A stretch of DNA of 64,000 nt from Roseospira visakhapatnamensis (GTDB lineage: Bacteria > Pseudomonadota > Alphaproteobacteria > Rhodospirillales > Rhodospirillaceae). Made by a program: the position numbers and the translations under genes. Where the stretch lies: the NCBI RefSeq assembly GCF_014197915.1, contig NZ_JACIGK010000001.1, positions 62,001 through 126,000 of the forward strand, read 5' to 3'. The notes below the pieces were generated by a model. The model was not told where the DNA came from, did no database searches, and saw nothing but the letters and a program-made list of their open reading frames with translations. This document shows positions 33,478-41,704 of this stretch, one piece after another; the first letter of the stretch is position 1; every line of letters starts with the position of its first letter.

Positions 33478-34776
33478 ATGGTGCGGCGCTATCTGGTTCC
33501 CGGACCGCTGGTCGTGGTCCTGCAACGCCTGGTCAGTGGCTTCCTGTTCATCCCCTCGGTGATCGCGCTGCTGGGCGTCGTGCTGGCGGTGCTGGCGGTA
33601 TGGGTGGACCGGACCCTGGTGCCGGACTCCTTCGAGACATGGGTCCAGATCCTCGACATCGACGCGGCGGGCGCGCGCTCCGTCCTGTCGACGATCGCCG
33701 GCGCCACCATGACCGTCATCAGCCTGGTCTATTCCCTGACGCTGGTGGTGTTCACCCTGGCGGCCGCGAACATCGGCCCGCGCCTTCTGGAGAACTTCAC
33801 GAACAACCGAGTGAACCAGATCACCATCGGGTTGTTCGCCGCCAGTTTCCTGTACGCCCTTATCGTCCTCTACATTGTCGGCGAGTCGGAGGTTCCCAAG
33901 ATTTCCGTGGCGGTCGCCATCGTCCTGGTGACCGTCAGCCTGTTTTCCCTCATCTACTTCGTGAACGACGCCGCCCGCAGCGTCAAGGTGGACAACGAGA
34001 TCGCCCGCACGCAGCACGCCCTGCGGCGATCCATCGACCGGCTGCTCGTCAAGGAGACGCCCGAGGCCGACGGCGAGGCGTACAGGATTCCCACCGGTCC
34101 GACACGGACGGTCGCGGCCACCGCGCCCGGATACATCACGGCGGTGGACATCCCGGACCTCAAGCGCCTGGCCCTCCAGGCCGGTGGATTCATCACCATG
34201 AGCGCCCACCTAGGGGACTACGTGGTCGCCGGCGAGACCATGGCCGAACTGGTCGCCTGCTCGGATCGCTGCACCGAGGACGATGTCCGGCGCGCCATCC
34301 TGCTCGCGGATGCCCGGGCGCCGGGCGGCGACATCAAGTTCCACATCCACCTGGGCGTCGAGATCGCCCTCCGGGCCCTGTCCCCGGGCATCAACGACAG
34401 CTACACGGCGCTCGGCGCCATCGACCACCTGTCGGGGTCGCTGGCCATGATCCTGCAACGCGGGGTGCCCTCCGCCCTGCACCGCGACGAGGCGGGAACC
34501 CCGCGTGTCTGGATGCCGATCCTTGAGATCAAGGACATCATCGGCGTGGCGCTGCACCCGCTGCGGCGCGCGGGTCGCGGTAACATGCTGGTCACGCTGC
34601 GCCTGATCGAGGTGGTGGGCAAGCTGCGCCGGATCGCCTTGCCGCGTCACGCGCCGATCCTGACCATGCACCTGCGTCTGATCGCCAGCGATGCGACGCG
34701 GACCATCCAGGGCCGGCACGACCGGCGGGAGGTGGCCCGCCTGCTGCGCGCGGCCTCGCGCCGCCGCCCGGTCTAA
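33478..34776 (+). CDS. DUF2254 membrane protein
   Basis: 432 residues. Four N-terminal membrane helices (about 10-35, 70-92, 118-138, 145-165), with the family motif LSTIAGATMTVISLVYSLTLVVFTLAAANIGPRLL. A soluble region follows with GYITAVDIPDLKRLAL and FHIHLGVEIALRALSPGINDSYTALGAIDHL, which define DUF2254, a family of unknown function. Its stop codon overlaps that of the convergent acyl-CoA synthetase gene by four bases (CTAA). Role unknown; possibly a channel or membrane-stress protein. Confidence 0.85.
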   Translation: MVRRYLVPGPLVVVLQRLVSGFLFIPSVIALLGVVLAVLAVWVDRTLVPDSFETWVQILDIDAAGARSVLSTIAGATMTVISLVYSLTLVVFTLAAANIGPRLLENFTNNRVNQITIGLFAASFLYALIVLYIVGESEVPKISVAVAIVLVTVSLFSLIYFVNDAARSVKVDNEIARTQHALRRSIDRLLVKETPEADGEAYRIPTGPTRTVAATAPGYITAVDIPDLKRLALQAGGFITMSAHLGDYVVAGETMAELVACSDRCTEDDVRRAILLADARAPGGDIKFHIHLGVEIALRALSPGINDSYTALGAIDHLSGSLAMILQRGVPSALHRDEAGTPRVWMPILEIKDIIGVALHPLRRAGRGNMLVTLRLIEVVGKLRRIALPRHAPILTMHLRLIASDATRTIQGRHDRREVARLLRAASRRRPV

Positions 34777-36446
34777 CCCGCGCCGCCCGCCGCCCGGTCC
34801 CGCAACGCCCGCCGCATCACCTTGCCCGTGGTGGTCATGGGCAGGGCCTCCAGGAACGCCACCGCGCGCGGGTAGGCATGGGCGGCATGGTGGGTCCTGG
34901 CGAAGTCCCGCAGGGCGCCCGCCAGGGCCGCCTCGCCGCCCGCCTGCTCGACCGCGCCGGGCGACGGCACCACGAACGCCTTGACGATCTCGGTGCGCAC
35001 CGGGTCGGGCACGCCGACCACGGCCACCATGGCCACGGCGGGATGCTTGAGGAGGCAGTCCTCGATCTCACCCGGGCCGATGCGGTAGCCGGCCGAGGTG
35101 ATCACGTCGTCGTCCCGGCCCACGAACCACAGGTAGCCGTCCTCGTCCATGCGGCCGGTATCGCCAGTCAGCAGCCAGTCGCCCACGAACCTGGCGGCCG
35201 TGGCCTCGGGGTTGTTCCAGTAGCCCAGGAACATCACCGGGTCGGGCCGGGCCACGGCGATGGACCCCAGGTCGCCCGTCGCCACCGGCGCCCCCGTGAC
35301 CGGATCGACAATCGCCACCCGATGCCCGGGCACCGGCCGGCCCATGGATCCGGGGCGCACCGGGAACAGGTCGGCGCCGTTGGCGACCACCAGATTGCAC
35401 TCGGTCTGGCCATAGAACTCGTTGATGGTCACGCCCAGGGCGTCGCGGCCCCAGTCCAGCAGCCCGGCCCCCAGGGTCTCGCCGCCCGAGCCCACCGATC
35501 GCAGGGCGCAGCCGAAGCGCCGGGGGTCGGGCACCTGGCGCAGCATTTTCAACGCCGTCGGCGGCAGGAACACGTTGCGCGCGCCGTGGCGAGCCATCAG
35601 GGCGAGCGCCGCCTCGGGATCGAACTTCGCGGCCCGATGGGCCAGCACCGGCACGCCGTGGTACAGCGAGGGCAGCAGGACGTCCAGCAGCCCGCCGATC
35701 CAGGCCCAGTCCGCCGGCGTCCAGAACAGGTCTCCGGGCCTGGGGAACAGGCGGTGCGGCACTTCCACGCCCGGCAGATGCCCGCGTAACACCCGCTGGG
35801 CGTGCAGCGCCCCCTTCGGCTTTCCGGTGGTGCCCGAGGTGTAGATGATCAGCGCGGGGTCATCGGCGCCGGTGTCGGCGGGTGCCCGCCGGTCCCGCGC
35901 GGCGGCCAGGGCGACGCCCCAGTCGATGACGCGTTGCGCCGGGTCGGCGGCGGCGGCCGAGCCACCCCCCAGGCAGACGATGGTGGACAGATGGGGCAGC
36001 GGGTCCGGCAGGCTGGTGATCCGGTCCGCGCCGGGACCGTCGGTGATCAGCGCCCGCGCACCCGAATCGGCCAGCCGGAACGTCAGGGCGTCGCCGCCGA
36101 ACAGGGTGAACAGCGGCACCGCGATCGCGCCCAGGCGCTGGATGGCCACATGGGCGACGGCGGTCTCCCATTGCTGGCCCAGCAGCACCGCCACCCGGTC
36201 GCCCGGCCGCACGTCGCGCCCGGCGAGGGCATTGGCGAGGCGGCTGGACTGCCGGCGCAGGTCCTCGAACCGATAGGCCTGGACGGTCCCGTCGGCGGCG
36301 TGGTCGATCACCGCCACGGCGGCCGCCCCGGCGGGCGTGGCGCAATGGCGATCGCAGACATCGGCCGCGATGTTGAGGCGCTGGGGCACGCGCCAGACAA
36401 AACGGGTGCACAGATCGTCCCAGGAGCAGGGAGCGTCAGGAAGCAT
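34773..36446 (-). CDS. Acyl-CoA synthetase (AMP-binding enzyme)
   Basis: 557 residues of the adenylate-forming superfamily: P-loop LIIYTSGTTGKPKGALH, NEFYGQTECNLVVANG (A5), LLTGDTGRMDEDGYLWFVGRDDDVITSAGYRIGPGEIE (A7-A8) and PMTTTGKVMRRAL with the catalytic Lys (A10). Activates a short- or medium-chain carboxylic acid to its CoA thioester, similar to acetyl-/propionyl-CoA synthetase-like enzymes of alphaproteobacteria. Its first ~30 codons and the sequence in front of them are repeated at 39458-39681 in a broken form, see the repeat entries. Confidence 0.88.
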   Translation of the reverse strand: MLPDAPCSWDDLCTRFVWRVPQRLNIAADVCDRHCATPAGAAAVAVIDHAADGTVQAYRFEDLRRQSSRLANALAGRDVRPGDRVAVLLGQQWETAVAHVAIQRLGAIAVPLFTLFGGDALTFRLADSGARALITDGPGADRITSLPDPLPHLSTIVCLGGGSAAAADPAQRVIDWGVALAAARDRRAPADTGADDPALIIYTSGTTGKPKGALHAQRVLRGHLPGVEVPHRLFPRPGDLFWTPADWAWIGGLLDVLLPSLYHGVPVLAHRAAKFDPEAALALMARHGARNVFLPPTALKMLRQVPDPRRFGCALRSVGSGGETLGAGLLDWGRDALGVTINEFYGQTECNLVVANGADLFPVRPGSMGRPVPGHRVAIVDPVTGAPVATGDLGSIAVARPDPVMFLGYWNNPEATAARFVGDWLLTGDTGRMDEDGYLWFVGRDDDVITSAGYRIGPGEIEDCLLKHPAVAMVAVVGVPDPVRTEIVKAFVVPSPGAVEQAGGEAALAGALRDFARTHHAAHAYPRAVAFLEALPMTTTGKVMRRALRDRAAGGAG

Positions 36447-36584
36447 CGTGGGTGGTCTCCGAGAATCAGGTCCGGTCGCTGTCGTCGTCGGCCTCGGCGC
36501 GGCCCGGCGGGGCCGGCTCCAGAGGCATGGCGTCCCGGGGCTGGGCCATGAGCACCACCGCCAGGCCCTCGGGACGCGGCGCGC
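36361..36584. repeat. Direct repeat, left copy (acyl-CoA synthetase 5' end / PAS-gene 3' end junction)
   Basis: Aligns without gaps to 39458-39681 (constant offset 3097). By hand count of the first 120 columns about 98 match, roughly 80% identity. The left copy contains the intact start of the acyl-CoA synthetase gene and a remnant of the 3' end of a gene like the HAMP/PAS sensor. Similarity fades at both ends within a few bases. Confidence 0.85.
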
Positions 36585-36615
36585 TCCGCGACGGTCTCTC
36601 GCCAGTGTTCGCTCT
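36466..36615 (-). pseudogene. Remnant of the C-terminus of a HAMP/PAS sensor gene
   Basis: Minus-strand codons read SAPRPEGLAVVLMAQPRD, then PLEPAPPGRAEADDDSDRT-stop. This matches the end of the sensor at 39533-41281 (AAPRPDGLAVVLVAQPRE ... PPEPGPPALAKADDDRDPT). Upstream of about 36600 the match stops. The frame happens to stay open to 36753 but the extra part is unrelated. It is a truncated copy, not a working sensor. Confidence 0.75.
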
Positions 36616-37065
36616 CCTTTTGCGGCTGTCGAGCATGGCTGTCGAGCATGAAGGTCGCGCCGGCGCCTCCAGACCCCGCGCCGCGTCCACCCGTCGCTCC
36701 GGGGTCAGGCCGTCCATTTCCGAAAGCCAAGCCAAAGACGTGTCCCGATCCATGCCCGCCCGCCGGGTTCGCTCTCCGTCACGACGCCCCGGTCGGAACC
36801 GCAGGGTCCCCGTTCATGAGACCTGAAATCATCGTAATGCACATATAAAGGTTGCATGCTGGCGGCCACCTGTTTAGATGGTGTTATCTGGGTGATAACA
36901 GCTTTAACTTTTTAACGCCCGTCGCACATCCATGCGGCGCACTGGATTCGGTCGTTGCCGATCAGCAAAGACCGAACCCCTATCCCGCGCCGATCACACA
37001 AGAATGCTCCAGAAAAAGCAATCATCCTCACATAGATCTGTTGTTCTAATAAAATGGAGGGTAGC
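36616..37065 (+). promoter_or_regulatory. AT-rich leader of the oxygenase gene with a candidate operator
   Basis: About 450 bases without a gene; GC falls sharply after 36820. An inverted repeat TGTTATC / GATAACA (36882-36888 and 36894-36900, 5-base spacer) is a good operator candidate. TATAAAG at about 36845 and several AT-rich hexamers could be promoter parts. The composition differs strongly from the flanking chromosome. Confidence 0.5.
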
Positions 37066-38004
37066 ATGATTCACTTTATTGACACGGATTCAATGAATCC
37101 GCCTCAGTCTGTTCAAGATATGGTCATGAGACATATTGATCGCGGAGAGAATGCCTACGAAATTTATTGCCGAATTGGGGCGGATGTCGACGGGCTCTGG
37201 CCCAAGTCCCGTGACCTCGCCCGGCAGATCATCGATCAAGTGGACGAGATGTCTTACGCCGTGACGAGTCCCCTGGGGTTGGGCGACATGCCGTCGGCCG
37301 CGCGCGACGTGCTGCTGTTGGCCCTGTTGGATAAGGTTGGGCTCATCACAGTGCATGATGACGACAGCAAAGTCCTGTGGGAGGTCAAGAGCCGGGACGG
37401 TCTTCAAGGCGGGCCGCGCAAACTCACGTTTTCGGAAAAGGTCGGTCGCTGTCCGCTGCACTCGGACTCCGCGTTCGCCTACGACCCAGAAAAGTACCTG
37501 TGTCTCTATGTGGTCAAAGAGTCCGGCGATGGCGGCGGAGAATCCGTCGTCGTGTCCATGGCCGACGCCATCGAGGAGTTGCGCGACGAACAGGACGGGG
37601 AGACCTGCCTCCGCCTTCTGCGCGACACGATCTTTCCGTTCCGGACACCGCCGGCCTTCTCCAAACGCACCAAGACCTTGACCGCGCCGATTCTCAGCGG
37701 ATCGTCCACCGTCCGCTACCGATACGATTGCATTGAAGATGGCTTCACGGACATTCCCGAGCTGGATACGGACGACCGTCGATGGGCCGTCTCCTATTTC
37801 TCGGACTTCGTGGAGAACCGGGCGAGCAAGCACACGTTTCTGGCCATGCGGGACCAGCTTCTCGTGGTGGACAACCGCCGCTCCCTCCATGCCCGGACCG
37901 ACTTCCGCGATGCGGGGCGGGCCTTGATCCGCGCGCGACTCCATGCGCCACCCGCCAGTGTGTTGGCGGGAAGGGGTACGCCGATCCACGCCACGTCGAC
38001 CTGA
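37066..38004 (+). CDS. Fe(II)/2-oxoglutarate-dependent oxygenase, clavaminate synthase/VioC/AsnO-like
   Basis: 312 residues. TauD/TfdA-superfamily signature: CPLHSDSAFAYDPEKYLCL contains the first His and Asp ligands (His132, Asp134), and DQLLVVDNRRSLHARTDF holds the distal His (His275), followed by the 2-oxoglutarate-binding Arg region ALIRARLH (~290). The motif VVDNRRxxHxR is typical of amino-acid hydroxylases such as VioC (arginine) and AsnO (asparagine) and of clavaminate synthase. The likely reaction is hydroxylation of a free or carrier-bound amino acid. Start chosen at 37066 because GGAGGGTAGC precedes it; an in-frame ATG at 37054 would add four residues. GC is well below the genome level. 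No peptide-synthetase gene is nearby. Confidence 0.82.
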   Translation: MIHFIDTDSMNPPQSVQDMVMRHIDRGENAYEIYCRIGADVDGLWPKSRDLARQIIDQVDEMSYAVTSPLGLGDMPSAARDVLLLALLDKVGLITVHDDDSKVLWEVKSRDGLQGGPRKLTFSEKVGRCPLHSDSAFAYDPEKYLCLYVVKESGDGGGESVVVSMADAIEELRDEQDGETCLRLLRDTIFPFRTPPAFSKRTKTLTAPILSGSSTVRYRYDCIEDGFTDIPELDTDDRRWAVSYFSDFVENRASKHTFLAMRDQLLVVDNRRSLHARTDFRDAGRALIRARLHAPPASVLAGRGTPIHATST

Positions 38005-38095
38005 ACACGACCTGTCGATCCGGCGAGGACCTGTGCACGGTCTATCGAGCCTCGCGTTATCCTGGTGCGTCGTCGTTCTTCCAGTCATCAAGCAA

Positions 38096-39418
38096 ATGGC
38101 TCCGTCCTTATCGTTCCCCACCCTGCGTCTGGTGCTCGCGCTGGCGCTGCTGGCCGGAACCACGGTGCTGGCCGAGGCGCCGGCGCCGTGGATCGGCCTG
38201 ATCGTCCTGGGCCTCGTGCTGCTCATCCTGCTGCCGAGCCTGCCCTCTGTGCTGCGCACGGTGACGGGGCGCTTCGCTGCGGCGCAGGTGGCGGTGACCA
38301 TCGCCTTGCTGGTGGGGACGGGGCAGGGGATGTGGGACGCGGTTGTGCCCGGGATGCGCTTTTCCGGCGTGGCCGCCTTCCTGATCTGCATGCCGCTCTA
38401 TGCCGTCTTGTTTCGAGCCGGCGGGCTGGACCGATGGATGGCGCGGACGTTGCTGCGTGTGCGCGGCGGGCTGCGGGTGCCGGCTCTGCTGGCCTGCGCC
38501 ACGGTCAGCACCTTCGGCCTCAGTTTCGGCACCATCCCGGTCTACGGCAGTGCCTTGCCCGGCGGATCCCGGCCGGCGGCGGCCGCCCTGTCCCGCGGGA
38601 TCGTGATCTCAATGCTGCTCGCGCCCACCACCGGGTCGGTTGCCGCGGTGATGGCGGCCTATCCCACCCTGGGACTGCCGGTCATCCTTTCGGCAACGGG
38701 ACCGGTGGCGGCGTTCGCCTTCGCCTTGGGTTGCCTCTTCCGGCACGGGTCGGTCGCGTTCGCCGAGGCCACGCCCAACCGGAAGCGGACGGAGCCGACC
38801 GACTGGACCGCCCCTGTCCTGGTGGCCATTCTTCTGATCGGGCTGCTCGGCCTCGGTGTGTCGCTGTTGCCCGCCATCGCCTGGAGTGGCGTGGTGACCT
38901 ATTTGGTGTGGATGCGATTCCAAGGGCGCGGTCGGCGCTGGCGCCGGGCGGTTGCTGGCCTGCGTGGCGTCATGAACCGGTCGGCCGCGCGGCTGGCCCC
39001 GGAGATCATGCTGTTCGTGGCGACAGGCTGGTTGGCCTGGGCGCTGTCCGGGCTGACCCTGCCGTCGGATCTGGGGGCGCCGGACGCCGGGGGGCTGCTC
39101 CGCCCCGCGCTGCCGGCGGTCATTCTGGTGGCCATGGCGGGGATCGCCATGCTGGGTGTTCATCCGATGGTGGTGTTCGGGATCCTTCATCCCCTTGTCG
39201 CCCAAATCGGCACGGGTCTGCCACCAGCGGCGGAATACACCGTGTGGCTGATCGGCTTTGTGTTGGCCCTGCTGCTTGCCCCCATTTCCGTGCTGACCAT
39301 GACCGCCGCCATCACCTCCGGCCTGACGCCCTGGCAGGCGAGCGTGCGACTGCACGGGGTCTACGCTCTGTGCCTGGGCGCCGGCACGGTGGCCTACGTT
39401 GTGACGCGGTATGGATAG
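38096..39418 (+). CDS. Polytopic membrane transporter-like protein
   Basis: 440 residues with about 11-12 hydrophobic helices and a basic cytoplasmic loop near residue 285 (FQGRGRRWRRAVAGLRG). The segment STFGLSFGTIPVYGSALPGGSRPAAAALSRGIVISMLLAPTTGSVAAVMAA looks like the re-entrant substrate region of ion-transporter-superfamily carriers, but no specific family is claimed. The ATG at 38096 follows the oxygenase gene by 91 bases on the same strand; the frame is open to 37943. Paired with the oxygenase inside the repeat-flanked segment, it may import the oxygenase substrate or export its product (inference). Confidence 0.65.
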   Translation: MAPSLSFPTLRLVLALALLAGTTVLAEAPAPWIGLIVLGLVLLILLPSLPSVLRTVTGRFAAAQVAVTIALLVGTGQGMWDAVVPGMRFSGVAAFLICMPLYAVLFRAGGLDRWMARTLLRVRGGLRVPALLACATVSTFGLSFGTIPVYGSALPGGSRPAAAALSRGIVISMLLAPTTGSVAAVMAAYPTLGLPVILSATGPVAAFAFALGCLFRHGSVAFAEATPNRKRTEPTDWTAPVLVAILLIGLLGLGVSLLPAIAWSGVVTYLVWMRFQGRGRRWRRAVAGLRGVMNRSAARLAPEIMLFVATGWLAWALSGLTLPSDLGAPDAGGLLRPALPAVILVAMAGIAMLGVHPMVVFGILHPLVAQIGTGLPPAAEYTVWLIGFVLALLLAPISVLTMTAAITSGLTPWQASVRLHGVYALCLGAGTVAYVVTRYG

Positions 39419-39457
39419 CCAACCACATGCCCGACGACGGATGAGCCCTGGCGCCTG

Positions 39458-39543
39458 TCGGCCGCGAGGTTGCGGCACGGGGGCACGCGCCGGACGAAGC
39501 GGTCGCACGGGTCGTCTCAGGAGCAGGGGACGTCAGGACGCGT
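39458..39543 (-). pseudogene. Remnant of the 5' end of an acyl-CoA synthetase gene
   Basis: Minus-strand codons in the synthetase frame read RPDVPCS-stop-DDPCDRFVRRVPP, then CRNLAAD. The intact gene reads MLPDAPCSWDDLCTRFVWRVPQ, then RLNIAAD. The Trp codon TGG is TGA here and the start codon is lost. It ends where the repeat ends. Confidence 0.75.
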
Positions 39544-39681
39544 CGTGGGTCGTCGCCGAGGATCGGGTCGGGTCGCGGTCGTCGTCGGCCTTGGCGAGGG
39601 CCGGCGGGCCCGGCTCCGGAGGCGCGACCTCCCGGGGCTGGGCCACCAGCACCACCGCCAGGCCGTCGGGACGCGGCGCGG
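39458..39681. repeat. Direct repeat, right copy
   Basis: Gapless partner of 36361-36584. Here the PAS-sensor gene is intact and the acyl-CoA synthetase 5' end is broken. The two copies bracket the oxygenase and transporter genes. Confidence 0.85.
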
Positions 39682-41281
39682 CCACCAGCGACAGCGCCAG
39701 GGGCAGGCGACGACCATCCGCATGCCGCCCCAGGCCGGCCAGCGGTGCCGGGTCCCCGCCCTCGCCGCCCGTGTTGGACGTCCCCGTGTCGGACGTCCCC
39801 GTATCGGACGTCCCCGTATCGGACATCCTGGTATCGGACGTCCTGCTGTCGCACGCATGGTCCAGGCGGCGGCGCAGGCGCGCCGTGGTGTCCTCGTCGA
39901 ACAGGGCCTCCAGCGCGCGCCCCAACAGCGCCGCCTCGTCCTGGCCGAACAGCCGTTGCGCGGCCGCGTTCAGGCCCTCCACGCGGCCGTCGCCGCCCAG
40001 CAGAACCAGCGCCACGGGCGTCGCGGCCAGCAGAAGCCGCCCCTGGACGTCGCCGTCATGGCGGGCCCGGTCCACGCGCCGCCGCTCGGCATCCAGGGCC
40101 GCCACGGCGCGAATCAGCGCCCCCAGTTCGTCGGTCCGATCGGCACCGGGCGGCAGCGCCAGGGGCGTCGCGTCACCGGCCGCGCGGGTGGCGCGCACCA
40201 GGGCGCGCAGGCGCACCACCAGCGCGCGCCACACCTGCCACAGGCCAAACAGCGTCACCCCCAGGCCGACGGCCACCACCGTCACCGCCCCGCCGCGCCA
40301 CAGCAGCGCCTCGCGCTCCAGGCCGGCCCGGCGCACCGCCTGGGTCTGCTCCAGGTCGGCGATGACCTGGGCCACGGCGGCGGTCAGCCGATCGGACGCC
40401 TGCCGGCCACGGACCAGCACCGCCGGCGTGTTCTGTTCCACGCCCAGGCGCTGCTGACTCAGGCGGACCACGCCATCGCGCCCCTCTGCGCCCACCGCCA
40501 GGGCGGTGAGTTCGGCCTGAAGCGCCTCCAGCAGGGGAATCACGCTCCGGCCCGAGCGACGAATGGCCGAGGCCGCCCGGCGCAACGATTCGTCGGCGCG
40601 CAGCGACAGGTACTCAAGGTCGCTGGGGCTGGCCGCGCCGGTGGCCGCCAGCATCATCCCCACGGCCACCTGGGCGTTGCGGGCCCAGCCGCGAATGGCC
40701 GCCGCCTGGCGGCCCCCGCTCGGGCCGGCGGGCTTGACGGGATCCCGCAGCAGGAGGAAGGCGGGCAGTCCCTCCGGCGTCCGCCCGGCCAGCAGGTCCC
40801 TCTCCAGGTCCGGCAGCAGGTCGCCCAGGATGGCCAGGCGCGCCGTCGCCCGGGCGGTGGCGTCGCGCAGATCGAAGCGGCGGCTGACCAGGCCGTCCAG
40901 GCTGTCCAGCGCCGCGCCCATGTCGGTCAGCGCGGCCCGCAACCGCTCGCGGGTGGCGGGCTCCAGGCGCGTCCCGTTGAGATCCGACAGGCGCGCCGCC
41001 AGGGCCGCGCGCGCCTCCGCCATGCTGGCCACCGCGCGTGTCCTTTCGGCCCGGTCGCGCGCGGTGGCCAGGGTGCCGGCGGTCTCGGCCAGGACATCGC
41101 CGAGACGGCTGATGGCCAGCATGTCGGAAAAGCGCGGGATGGACTCGTCGAGCAGGTCCTGGCGGTCGCGACGCCAGCGATCCTGGGCCAGCAAGAACCC
41201 GCCAACGAGCAGCACGATCAGGAACGCCAGGAGGCCATGCGTGGCGGCCAGGCGAAGGGCGAGGCGGGGACGTGGCGGCAC
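39533..41281 (-). CDS. HAMP/PAS membrane sensor protein lacking a kinase domain
   Basis: 582 residues. An N-terminal membrane helix (~12-31, LLAFLIVLLVGGFLLA) is followed by a long helical periplasmic domain (~32-330) like those of TorS-type sensors, a second membrane helix (~333-355, GGAVTVVAVGLGVTLFGLW), a HAMP linker, and a PAS domain (~425-560, LLAATPVALVLLGGDGRVEGLNAAAQRLFGQDEAALLGRAL). The PAS domain is interrupted by a 15-bp-repeat-encoded SDTGT tract. It stops right after the PAS domain: no H-box, ATPase, GGDEF or methyl-accepting region. It may signal through a partner, or be a truncated kinase. The left repeat copy ends at the same point, so the short end predates the duplication. 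Confidence 0.75.
   Translation of the reverse strand: MPPRPRLALRLAATHGLLAFLIVLLVGGFLLAQDRWRRDRQDLLDESIPRFSDMLAISRLGDVLAETAGTLATARDRAERTRAVASMAEARAALAARLSDLNGTRLEPATRERLRAALTDMGAALDSLDGLVSRRFDLRDATARATARLAILGDLLPDLERDLLAGRTPEGLPAFLLLRDPVKPAGPSGGRQAAAIRGWARNAQVAVGMMLAATGAASPSDLEYLSLRADESLRRAASAIRRSGRSVIPLLEALQAELTALAVGAEGRDGVVRLSQQRLGVEQNTPAVLVRGRQASDRLTAAVAQVIADLEQTQAVRRAGLEREALLWRGGAVTVVAVGLGVTLFGLWQVWRALVVRLRALVRATRAAGDATPLALPPGADRTDELGALIRAVAALDAERRRVDRARHDGDVQGRLLLAATPVALVLLGGDGRVEGLNAAAQRLFGQDEAALLGRALEALFDEDTTARLRRRLDHACDSRTSDTRMSDTGTSDTGTSDTGTSNTGGEGGDPAPLAGLGRHADGRRLPLALSLVAAPRPDGLAVVLVAQPREVAPPEPGPPALAKADDDRDPTRSSATTHDAS
39771..39845 (-). repeat. Five tandem 15-bp repeats inside the PAS-sensor gene
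   Basis: Units of the form GTRTCGGACGTCCCC (plus strand) at 39771, 39786, 39801, 39816 and 39831, with a decayed sixth unit after. In the protein they give S-D-T-G-T and close variants. The length is a multiple of three, so copy-number change would keep the frame. Confidence 0.9.
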
Positions 41282-41476: not shown

Positions 41477-41572
41477 GAAGGCTGGCGGTGGACGGGTCCC
41501 TCGCCAACCCGGTCAGGTCCGGAAGGAAGCAGCCGTAACGAGTTCCGGCTCGGGTCGCCGTCCAGTCTTCCA
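41477..41572 (+). ncRNA. ffs: Signal recognition particle 4.5S RNA
   Basis: The universally conserved tip GGTCAGGTCCGGAAGGAAGC (from 41512) followed by AGCC is unmistakable. The long hairpin closes with GGAAG (41477-41481) pairing CTTCC (41568-41572) and CTGG (41483-41486) pairing CCAG (41563-41566), giving about 96 nt. It binds Ffh and targets nascent membrane proteins to the membrane. Position directly upstream of dnaX is common in alpha- and other proteobacteria. Confidence 0.93.
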
Positions 41573-41704
41573 CGCCCCTCTCGGGTGTCCGTGCCCTCGG
41601 GCGCCCATGGCGTCGGCGCACCCGGCCGCGTGCGCCATCGTGGGCCCCGTTCCCTTGGGAGTCCCCGCCGGCGGACGTCCCGCCCAGCCGGACCCGACCG
41701 CGCG

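Follow-up and report, generated by a model that had tools for sequence, protein, structure and literature searches.

The window analysed here is a stretch of 64,000 nucleotides, corresponding to positions 62001-126000 of contig C1 in a 4.49 Mb assembly of 99 contigs (G000, referred to below as the own genome). Two intact genes on the minus strand frame the locus. The left one (34773-36446; Pfam PF00501 and PF13193) encodes an AMP-binding acyl-CoA synthetase, and the right one (39533-41281; PF08448 and PF00989) encodes a PAS sensor of 582 amino acids that has orthologues in five other genomes of the genus. The interval holds, in left-to-right order, the relic of a transposase gene of the IS1595 family (36587-36770, minus strand), an AT-rich region identified by its base composition (36823-37065, plus strand, GC 0.477), a gene for a TauD/TfdA-type iron/2-oxoglutarate oxygenase (37066-38004, plus strand), a gene for a polytopic membrane protein of 440 amino acids (38096-39418, plus strand) and a final 39 bases. 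Beyond the sensor there is a small SRP RNA (41477-41573).

This insert is flanked by a direct repeat of 223-224 bp (36361-36583 and 39458-39680), which aligns without gaps at a constant offset of 3097, with 189 of 224 bases identical (BLAST E value 5e-68). A first-pass annotation of the sequence had described just such a gapless repeat, at about 80% identity; the repeat is real, although the figure was slightly low, the measured identity being 84-85%. The edges of the repeat are sharp, with identity dropping to background at both ends, and the sole further match to it in the rest of the own genome is of 29 bases. The repeat spans the overlap of two minus-strand genes, i.e., the end of the sensor gene and the start of the synthetase gene, with the sensor stop codon lying 11 bases inside the synthetase gene (counted from start to stop inclusive).

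Each copy of this junction retains one whole gene end and one remnant. In the left copy the synthetase start is whole, with its ATG at 36446 and the first 86 bases of the gene within the repeat, while the alignment and our reading of the sequence identify 36436-36583 as a remnant of the sensor end, interrupted by an in-frame TGA; a protein search also recovers this remnant (67%, with one TGA). Alignment of the right copy gives the reverse arrangement: the sensor end is intact, and the synthetase remnant (39458-39543) has lost its start codon (ATG to ACG) and has acquired a stop at the ninth codon (TGG to TGA). The first-pass annotation had read both copies as junctions of a synthetase start and a PAS sensor end, with the same division into intact and remnant halves, and that reading holds.

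No kinase domain was found in the window's sensor, which stops after the PAS domain. That of the nearest relative (G005; L045:523-2967), by contrast, continues with a histidine kinase domain (HATPase_c, 5e-24) in an open frame of 834 codons. The sensor open frames of three further relatives (G001, G002 and G004) are 555-668 codons long. Inside the window's sensor gene, an array of 15-base repeats (39753-39855) codes for a repeated TSDTG-like linker.

The inserted genes and the transposase relic

The third-position GC content (GC3) of the synthetase, the sensor, dnaX and a DUF2254 gene is 0.907-0.921. The values for the oxygenase are GC 0.606 and GC3 0.751, and those for the membrane protein are 0.701 and 0.866. 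The lower GC noted for the oxygenase in the first-pass annotation thus applies to this gene and the AT-rich stretch upstream of it, but only mildly to the membrane protein.

The oxygenase matches Pfam TauD (PF02668) with 61.2 bits, against a cut-off of 27, as a member of the TauD/TfdA superfamily. Its HxD motif and distal H align in register with TmpA (6npb), with which it shares these iron-binding residues. Gamma-butyrobetaine dioxygenase and TmpA were both rejected as equivalog identities: the matches to TIGR02409 (34.4 of 414.75 bits) and NF049936 (27.9 of 400 bits) are weak and lie far below both curated cut-offs, and no equivalog cut-off tested was reached. Folding from single sequences gave models too unreliable for interpretation (pLDDT 47.2 and 32.2), and the first of these matched nothing at E ≤ 0.001 when used for a structure search.

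Ahead of the oxygenase, the AT-rich DNA (fold z score -2.53) contains a perfect palindrome with 7-base arms (36882-36900; TGTTATC, five bases, GATAACA) and an imperfect 36-base palindrome with 18-base arms that match at 83% (36944-36979). Both are possible operator sites; a search for the palindrome pattern in viral contigs gave no match. A match to a sigma-70-like promoter was found at 37027-37055, one of two such matches in the region when 0.3 would be expected. We infer that the oxygenase and membrane protein genes make up a foreign module that has a promoter of its own.

The membrane protein matched no Pfam or NCBIfam family at the cut-offs, and to call it a transporter is a guess. Relatives that are 31-32% identical to it occur in three genomes of the class, all from a single genus, and no oxygenase was found near them (one 16-residue match, E 0.92). 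Adjacency suggests that the oxygenase and the membrane protein might work together.

Searches for a source of the insert returned few relatives of either protein, those of the oxygenase being distant. The oxygenase was found in two of 385 genomes of the class, including the own genome, at E ≤ 1e-12, and in three of 60 relatives, again including the own genome, the other two proteins being 21-28% identical. Oxygenase relatives also occur in 12 plasmid records, all at less than 60% identity; three of these were opened, and the two that are annotated have an MFS gene and peptide-synthetase genes alongside. No oxygenase was found in phages, in viral contigs or in a genome-contig scan. The membrane protein was confined to the own genome among the 60 relatives, and was found in four of the 385 class genomes (own genome included) and in two of 299 genomes of the phylum, one of them the own genome and the other containing a 79-residue piece; it was not found in plasmids or viral contigs.

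The transposase relic was recognized by its matches to an intact gene in the same genome (G000:C53:816-1715), whose product matches PF12762 and, above the cut-off, NF033547, i.e., an IS1595-family transposase. The two align at 83% over 103 bases, and, after a gap of about 350 bases in the intact gene, at 88% over 26 and 81% over 37 bases (score 50, with a maximum of 41 in 300 shuffles). The relic thus comprises the start region of the transposase gene followed by an internal piece (about codons 148-165), the middle having gone. It contains a 13-base direct duplication (36624-36649) and abuts the left junction copy, the local alignment extending to 36587, three bases from that copy.

Intact copies of the element start near GGCTCAATTAGCG, and neither this sequence nor its complement was found at 36000-41000 of the window. 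An upstream piece aligned at the relic scored 24, when 95% of shuffles scored 23 or less and the shuffle maximum was 30. No terminal inverted repeat was found at the relic, so that transposition of the IS1595 element itself is at most a candidate means by which the genes were brought in. A search of the genus with the transposase detected a single relic at the locus (G000:C1:98607-98753) and no second IS copy to the right of the insert, so that the two flanking copies of a composite or pseudo-compound transposon are not seen. In G001 and G004, the starts of related elements are located at the ends of contigs, a usual place for repeats. Other cut-down starts of the IS1595 type occur in the genus, on G000:C15 (L075, about 2016-2066) and on G004:C139 (L079); among these further starts, one has been shortened to about 80 bases after its end, and another has a second start nearby.

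The junction in related genomes

The same junction was examined in the five other genomes of the genus (G001-G005), which bring the genus sample to six with the own genome. Sensor orthologues are present in all five (45-73% identity) and synthetase orthologues in four (76-89% identity), with no synthetase in G003 at E ≤ 1e-60. In the four genomes that have both (G001, G002, G004 and G005), the two genes are adjacent and uninterrupted, with an identical 11-base overlap. The oxygenase and the membrane protein were absent from all five relatives searched. The uninterrupted junction that the first-pass annotation had envisaged in relatives thus exists, and its presence in four of five genomes, together with the insert genes in none, supports the reading of the segment, from sequence comparison, as a lineage-specific insertion into a formerly joined synthetase-sensor junction.

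The wider surroundings appear to differ, because neither dnaX, nor the DUF2254 gene (tblastn at 1e-5), nor the SRP RNA was seen in the stretches fetched from the five relatives, of which that of G005 starts just 522 bases ahead of the sensor. In these genomes, the pair of synthetase and sensor genes (in G003 only the sensor) therefore appears to sit in a different neighbourhood.

Origin of the second junction copy

The divergence between the two copies had led the first-pass annotation to propose that a separate version of the junction arrived with the incoming DNA. Within the 86-base synthetase part, the distance between the left and right copies is 0.186, whereas distances to the four relatives are 0.244-0.410 for the left copy and 0.314-0.482 for the right. 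In this part, the copies are therefore nearer to each other than to any genus relative compared, which is the outcome that the annotation had itself set against its proposal.

The pattern of substitution also disfavours imported flanks. By codon position, the differences between the copies are distributed 4/7/5 in the synthetase part and 5/10/4 in the sensor-only part. Third positions account for 9 of 35 differences, near the one third expected without coding constraint. Between the working orthologues of the own genome and G005, third positions account for 139 of 203 differences in the synthetase and for 185 of 319 in the first 474 codons of the sensor. For the two parts of the repeat, the contrast gives Fisher p = 0.0047 (synthetase) and 0.011 (sensor), with the two differences in the overlap entered in both. 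With G005 as the outgroup, changes in the synthetase part were assigned to the right (dead) copy in 10 cases and to the left (intact) copy in four, two being ambiguous; for the sensor part no outgroup aligns. Only one of the 10 right-copy changes is at a third position, compared with 13 of 21 between the orthologues (p = 0.0089). The latter figure, for the same 86-base stretch, is 13/21 or 14/22 by two counts. When all the differences over these 86 bases are used, the contrast is weaker (5/16 versus 13/21, p = 0.099), and 29-codon windows of true orthologues can have a third-position share as low as 0.25. A simple mixture sets an upper bound of 21-30%, depending on the orthologue share assumed, on the fraction of differences for which orthologous divergence already present could account. 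With no excess at third positions and with changes mostly on the dead copy, the differences are best read, from the sequences compared, as decay of one redundant half per copy after a local duplication, and this reading is favoured.

A rough age follows from the same comparison. At four-fold sites, the own genome and G005 differ at 74 of 300 positions in the synthetase and 104 of 269 in the sensor, half of which corresponds to 12-19% per lineage. Set against this, the 10 changes in 86 bases on the right copy would make the duplication old, and by a rough estimate only a little younger than the divergence from G005.

We consider it probable that a native junction was copied locally, that foreign, IS-associated DNA became lodged between the copies, and that the redundant halves then decayed. 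In the ancestor, the sensor gene would have run into the synthetase gene with the 11-base overlap, and about 223 bases around this overlap would have been duplicated. DNA containing an IS1595-type element, the oxygenase gene and the membrane protein gene would be what separates the copies. With one gene end retained whole in each flanking copy, neither old gene would have been broken; the redundant halves, i.e., the left sensor end and the right synthetase start, would have been free to decay, and the insertion sequence would later have been reduced to the relic that now ends three bases from the left copy. The low GC and GC3 of the oxygenase, the IS1595 relic at the left edge, and the dead start codon and stops all support this account, while the four changes on the intact left copy, and a synthetase part of 86 bases, count against it. 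The order of duplication and insertion, and the agent of insertion, are what we infer; no IS end or target duplication that would point to the agent was found at the insert. A rather unlikely reading is that insertion and duplication were one event, with a staggered break of about 223 bases over the gene overlap being filled in at either side of the captured DNA.

An unlikely origin is DNA from a related bacterium that carried the oxygenase, the membrane protein and its own junction and recombined at the shared junction, either by a single crossover of a circle or through an element bringing a spare gene end, as e14 does. A single crossover should leave direct repeats in each of which one gene end is whole, and the 15-16% divergence between the copies could be understood in this way. 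So could the high divergence of the synthetase start: the first 29 codons are 1.96 times more diverged from G005 than the rest, the highest ratio of 10 species pairs, although the other nine range from 1.40 to 1.92 and the early codons vary in all. On the other side are the closeness of the copies to each other and the third-position pattern, with its bound on imported differences. The ORF list and family searches found only the oxygenase, the membrane protein and the transposase relic in the 2.9 kb insert, with no integrase or replication gene, and the segment had no match among plasmid and phage records. Import of the junction is disfavoured overall, although a very close, unsampled relative may have been its source.

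Rather less probable again is an initial tandem duplication of a longer stretch of the synthetase-sensor region, after which the oxygenase genes and the IS entered the spare copy and deletions took away nearly all of it, with one deletion endpoint inside the IS and 223 bases left on each side. The truncated relic, three bases from the left copy as if a deletion had joined them, and the decay of the redundant parts like spare DNA would both fit, but self-comparison revealed no further trace of sensor or synthetase in the insert, and more steps are needed. This is a variant of local copying followed by decay in which the initial duplication was larger. An ancestral arrangement, with the insert lost in the relatives, is very improbable even with a genus sample of just six genomes, because a precise loss restoring the same 11-base overlap would be needed in four relatives and the insert genes are nearly absent from the order and class samples too.

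Comparison with known systems

The arrangement of e14 at icd in E. coli, where the element supplies a spare end of the gene that it enters, resembles the present locus in having a host gene end on both sides and host genes that remain whole. It differs in that no integrase was found here, that the decay pattern suggests a local rather than an imported copy, and that both neighbouring genes, not one, are whole.

A second comparison is with composite or pseudo-compound transposons, in which foreign genes are inserted next to insertion sequences, here of the IS1595 family (ISApl4, PMC12561309). The likeness is that passenger genes lie beside an IS1595-family transposase; here, however, there is one truncated relic, neither an inverted repeat nor a second copy was found, and the flanking repeat is made up of host gene sequence, 223 bases long, in place of a short target duplication.

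The case is neat and instructive, but fairly ordinary genome evolution. It offers a dated, polarised example of how foreign genes, both rare among the sampled genomes, can enter an overlapping gene pair and leave each member unbroken: the cost of the insertion falls on the duplicated overlap, which afterwards decays. The locus also indicates that a diverged flanking repeat need not imply imported flanks. If the single staggered-break event were the true course, a foreign module would have entered an overlapping gene pair while harming neither gene, and the overlap would act as a filter through which only duplicating insertions survive.
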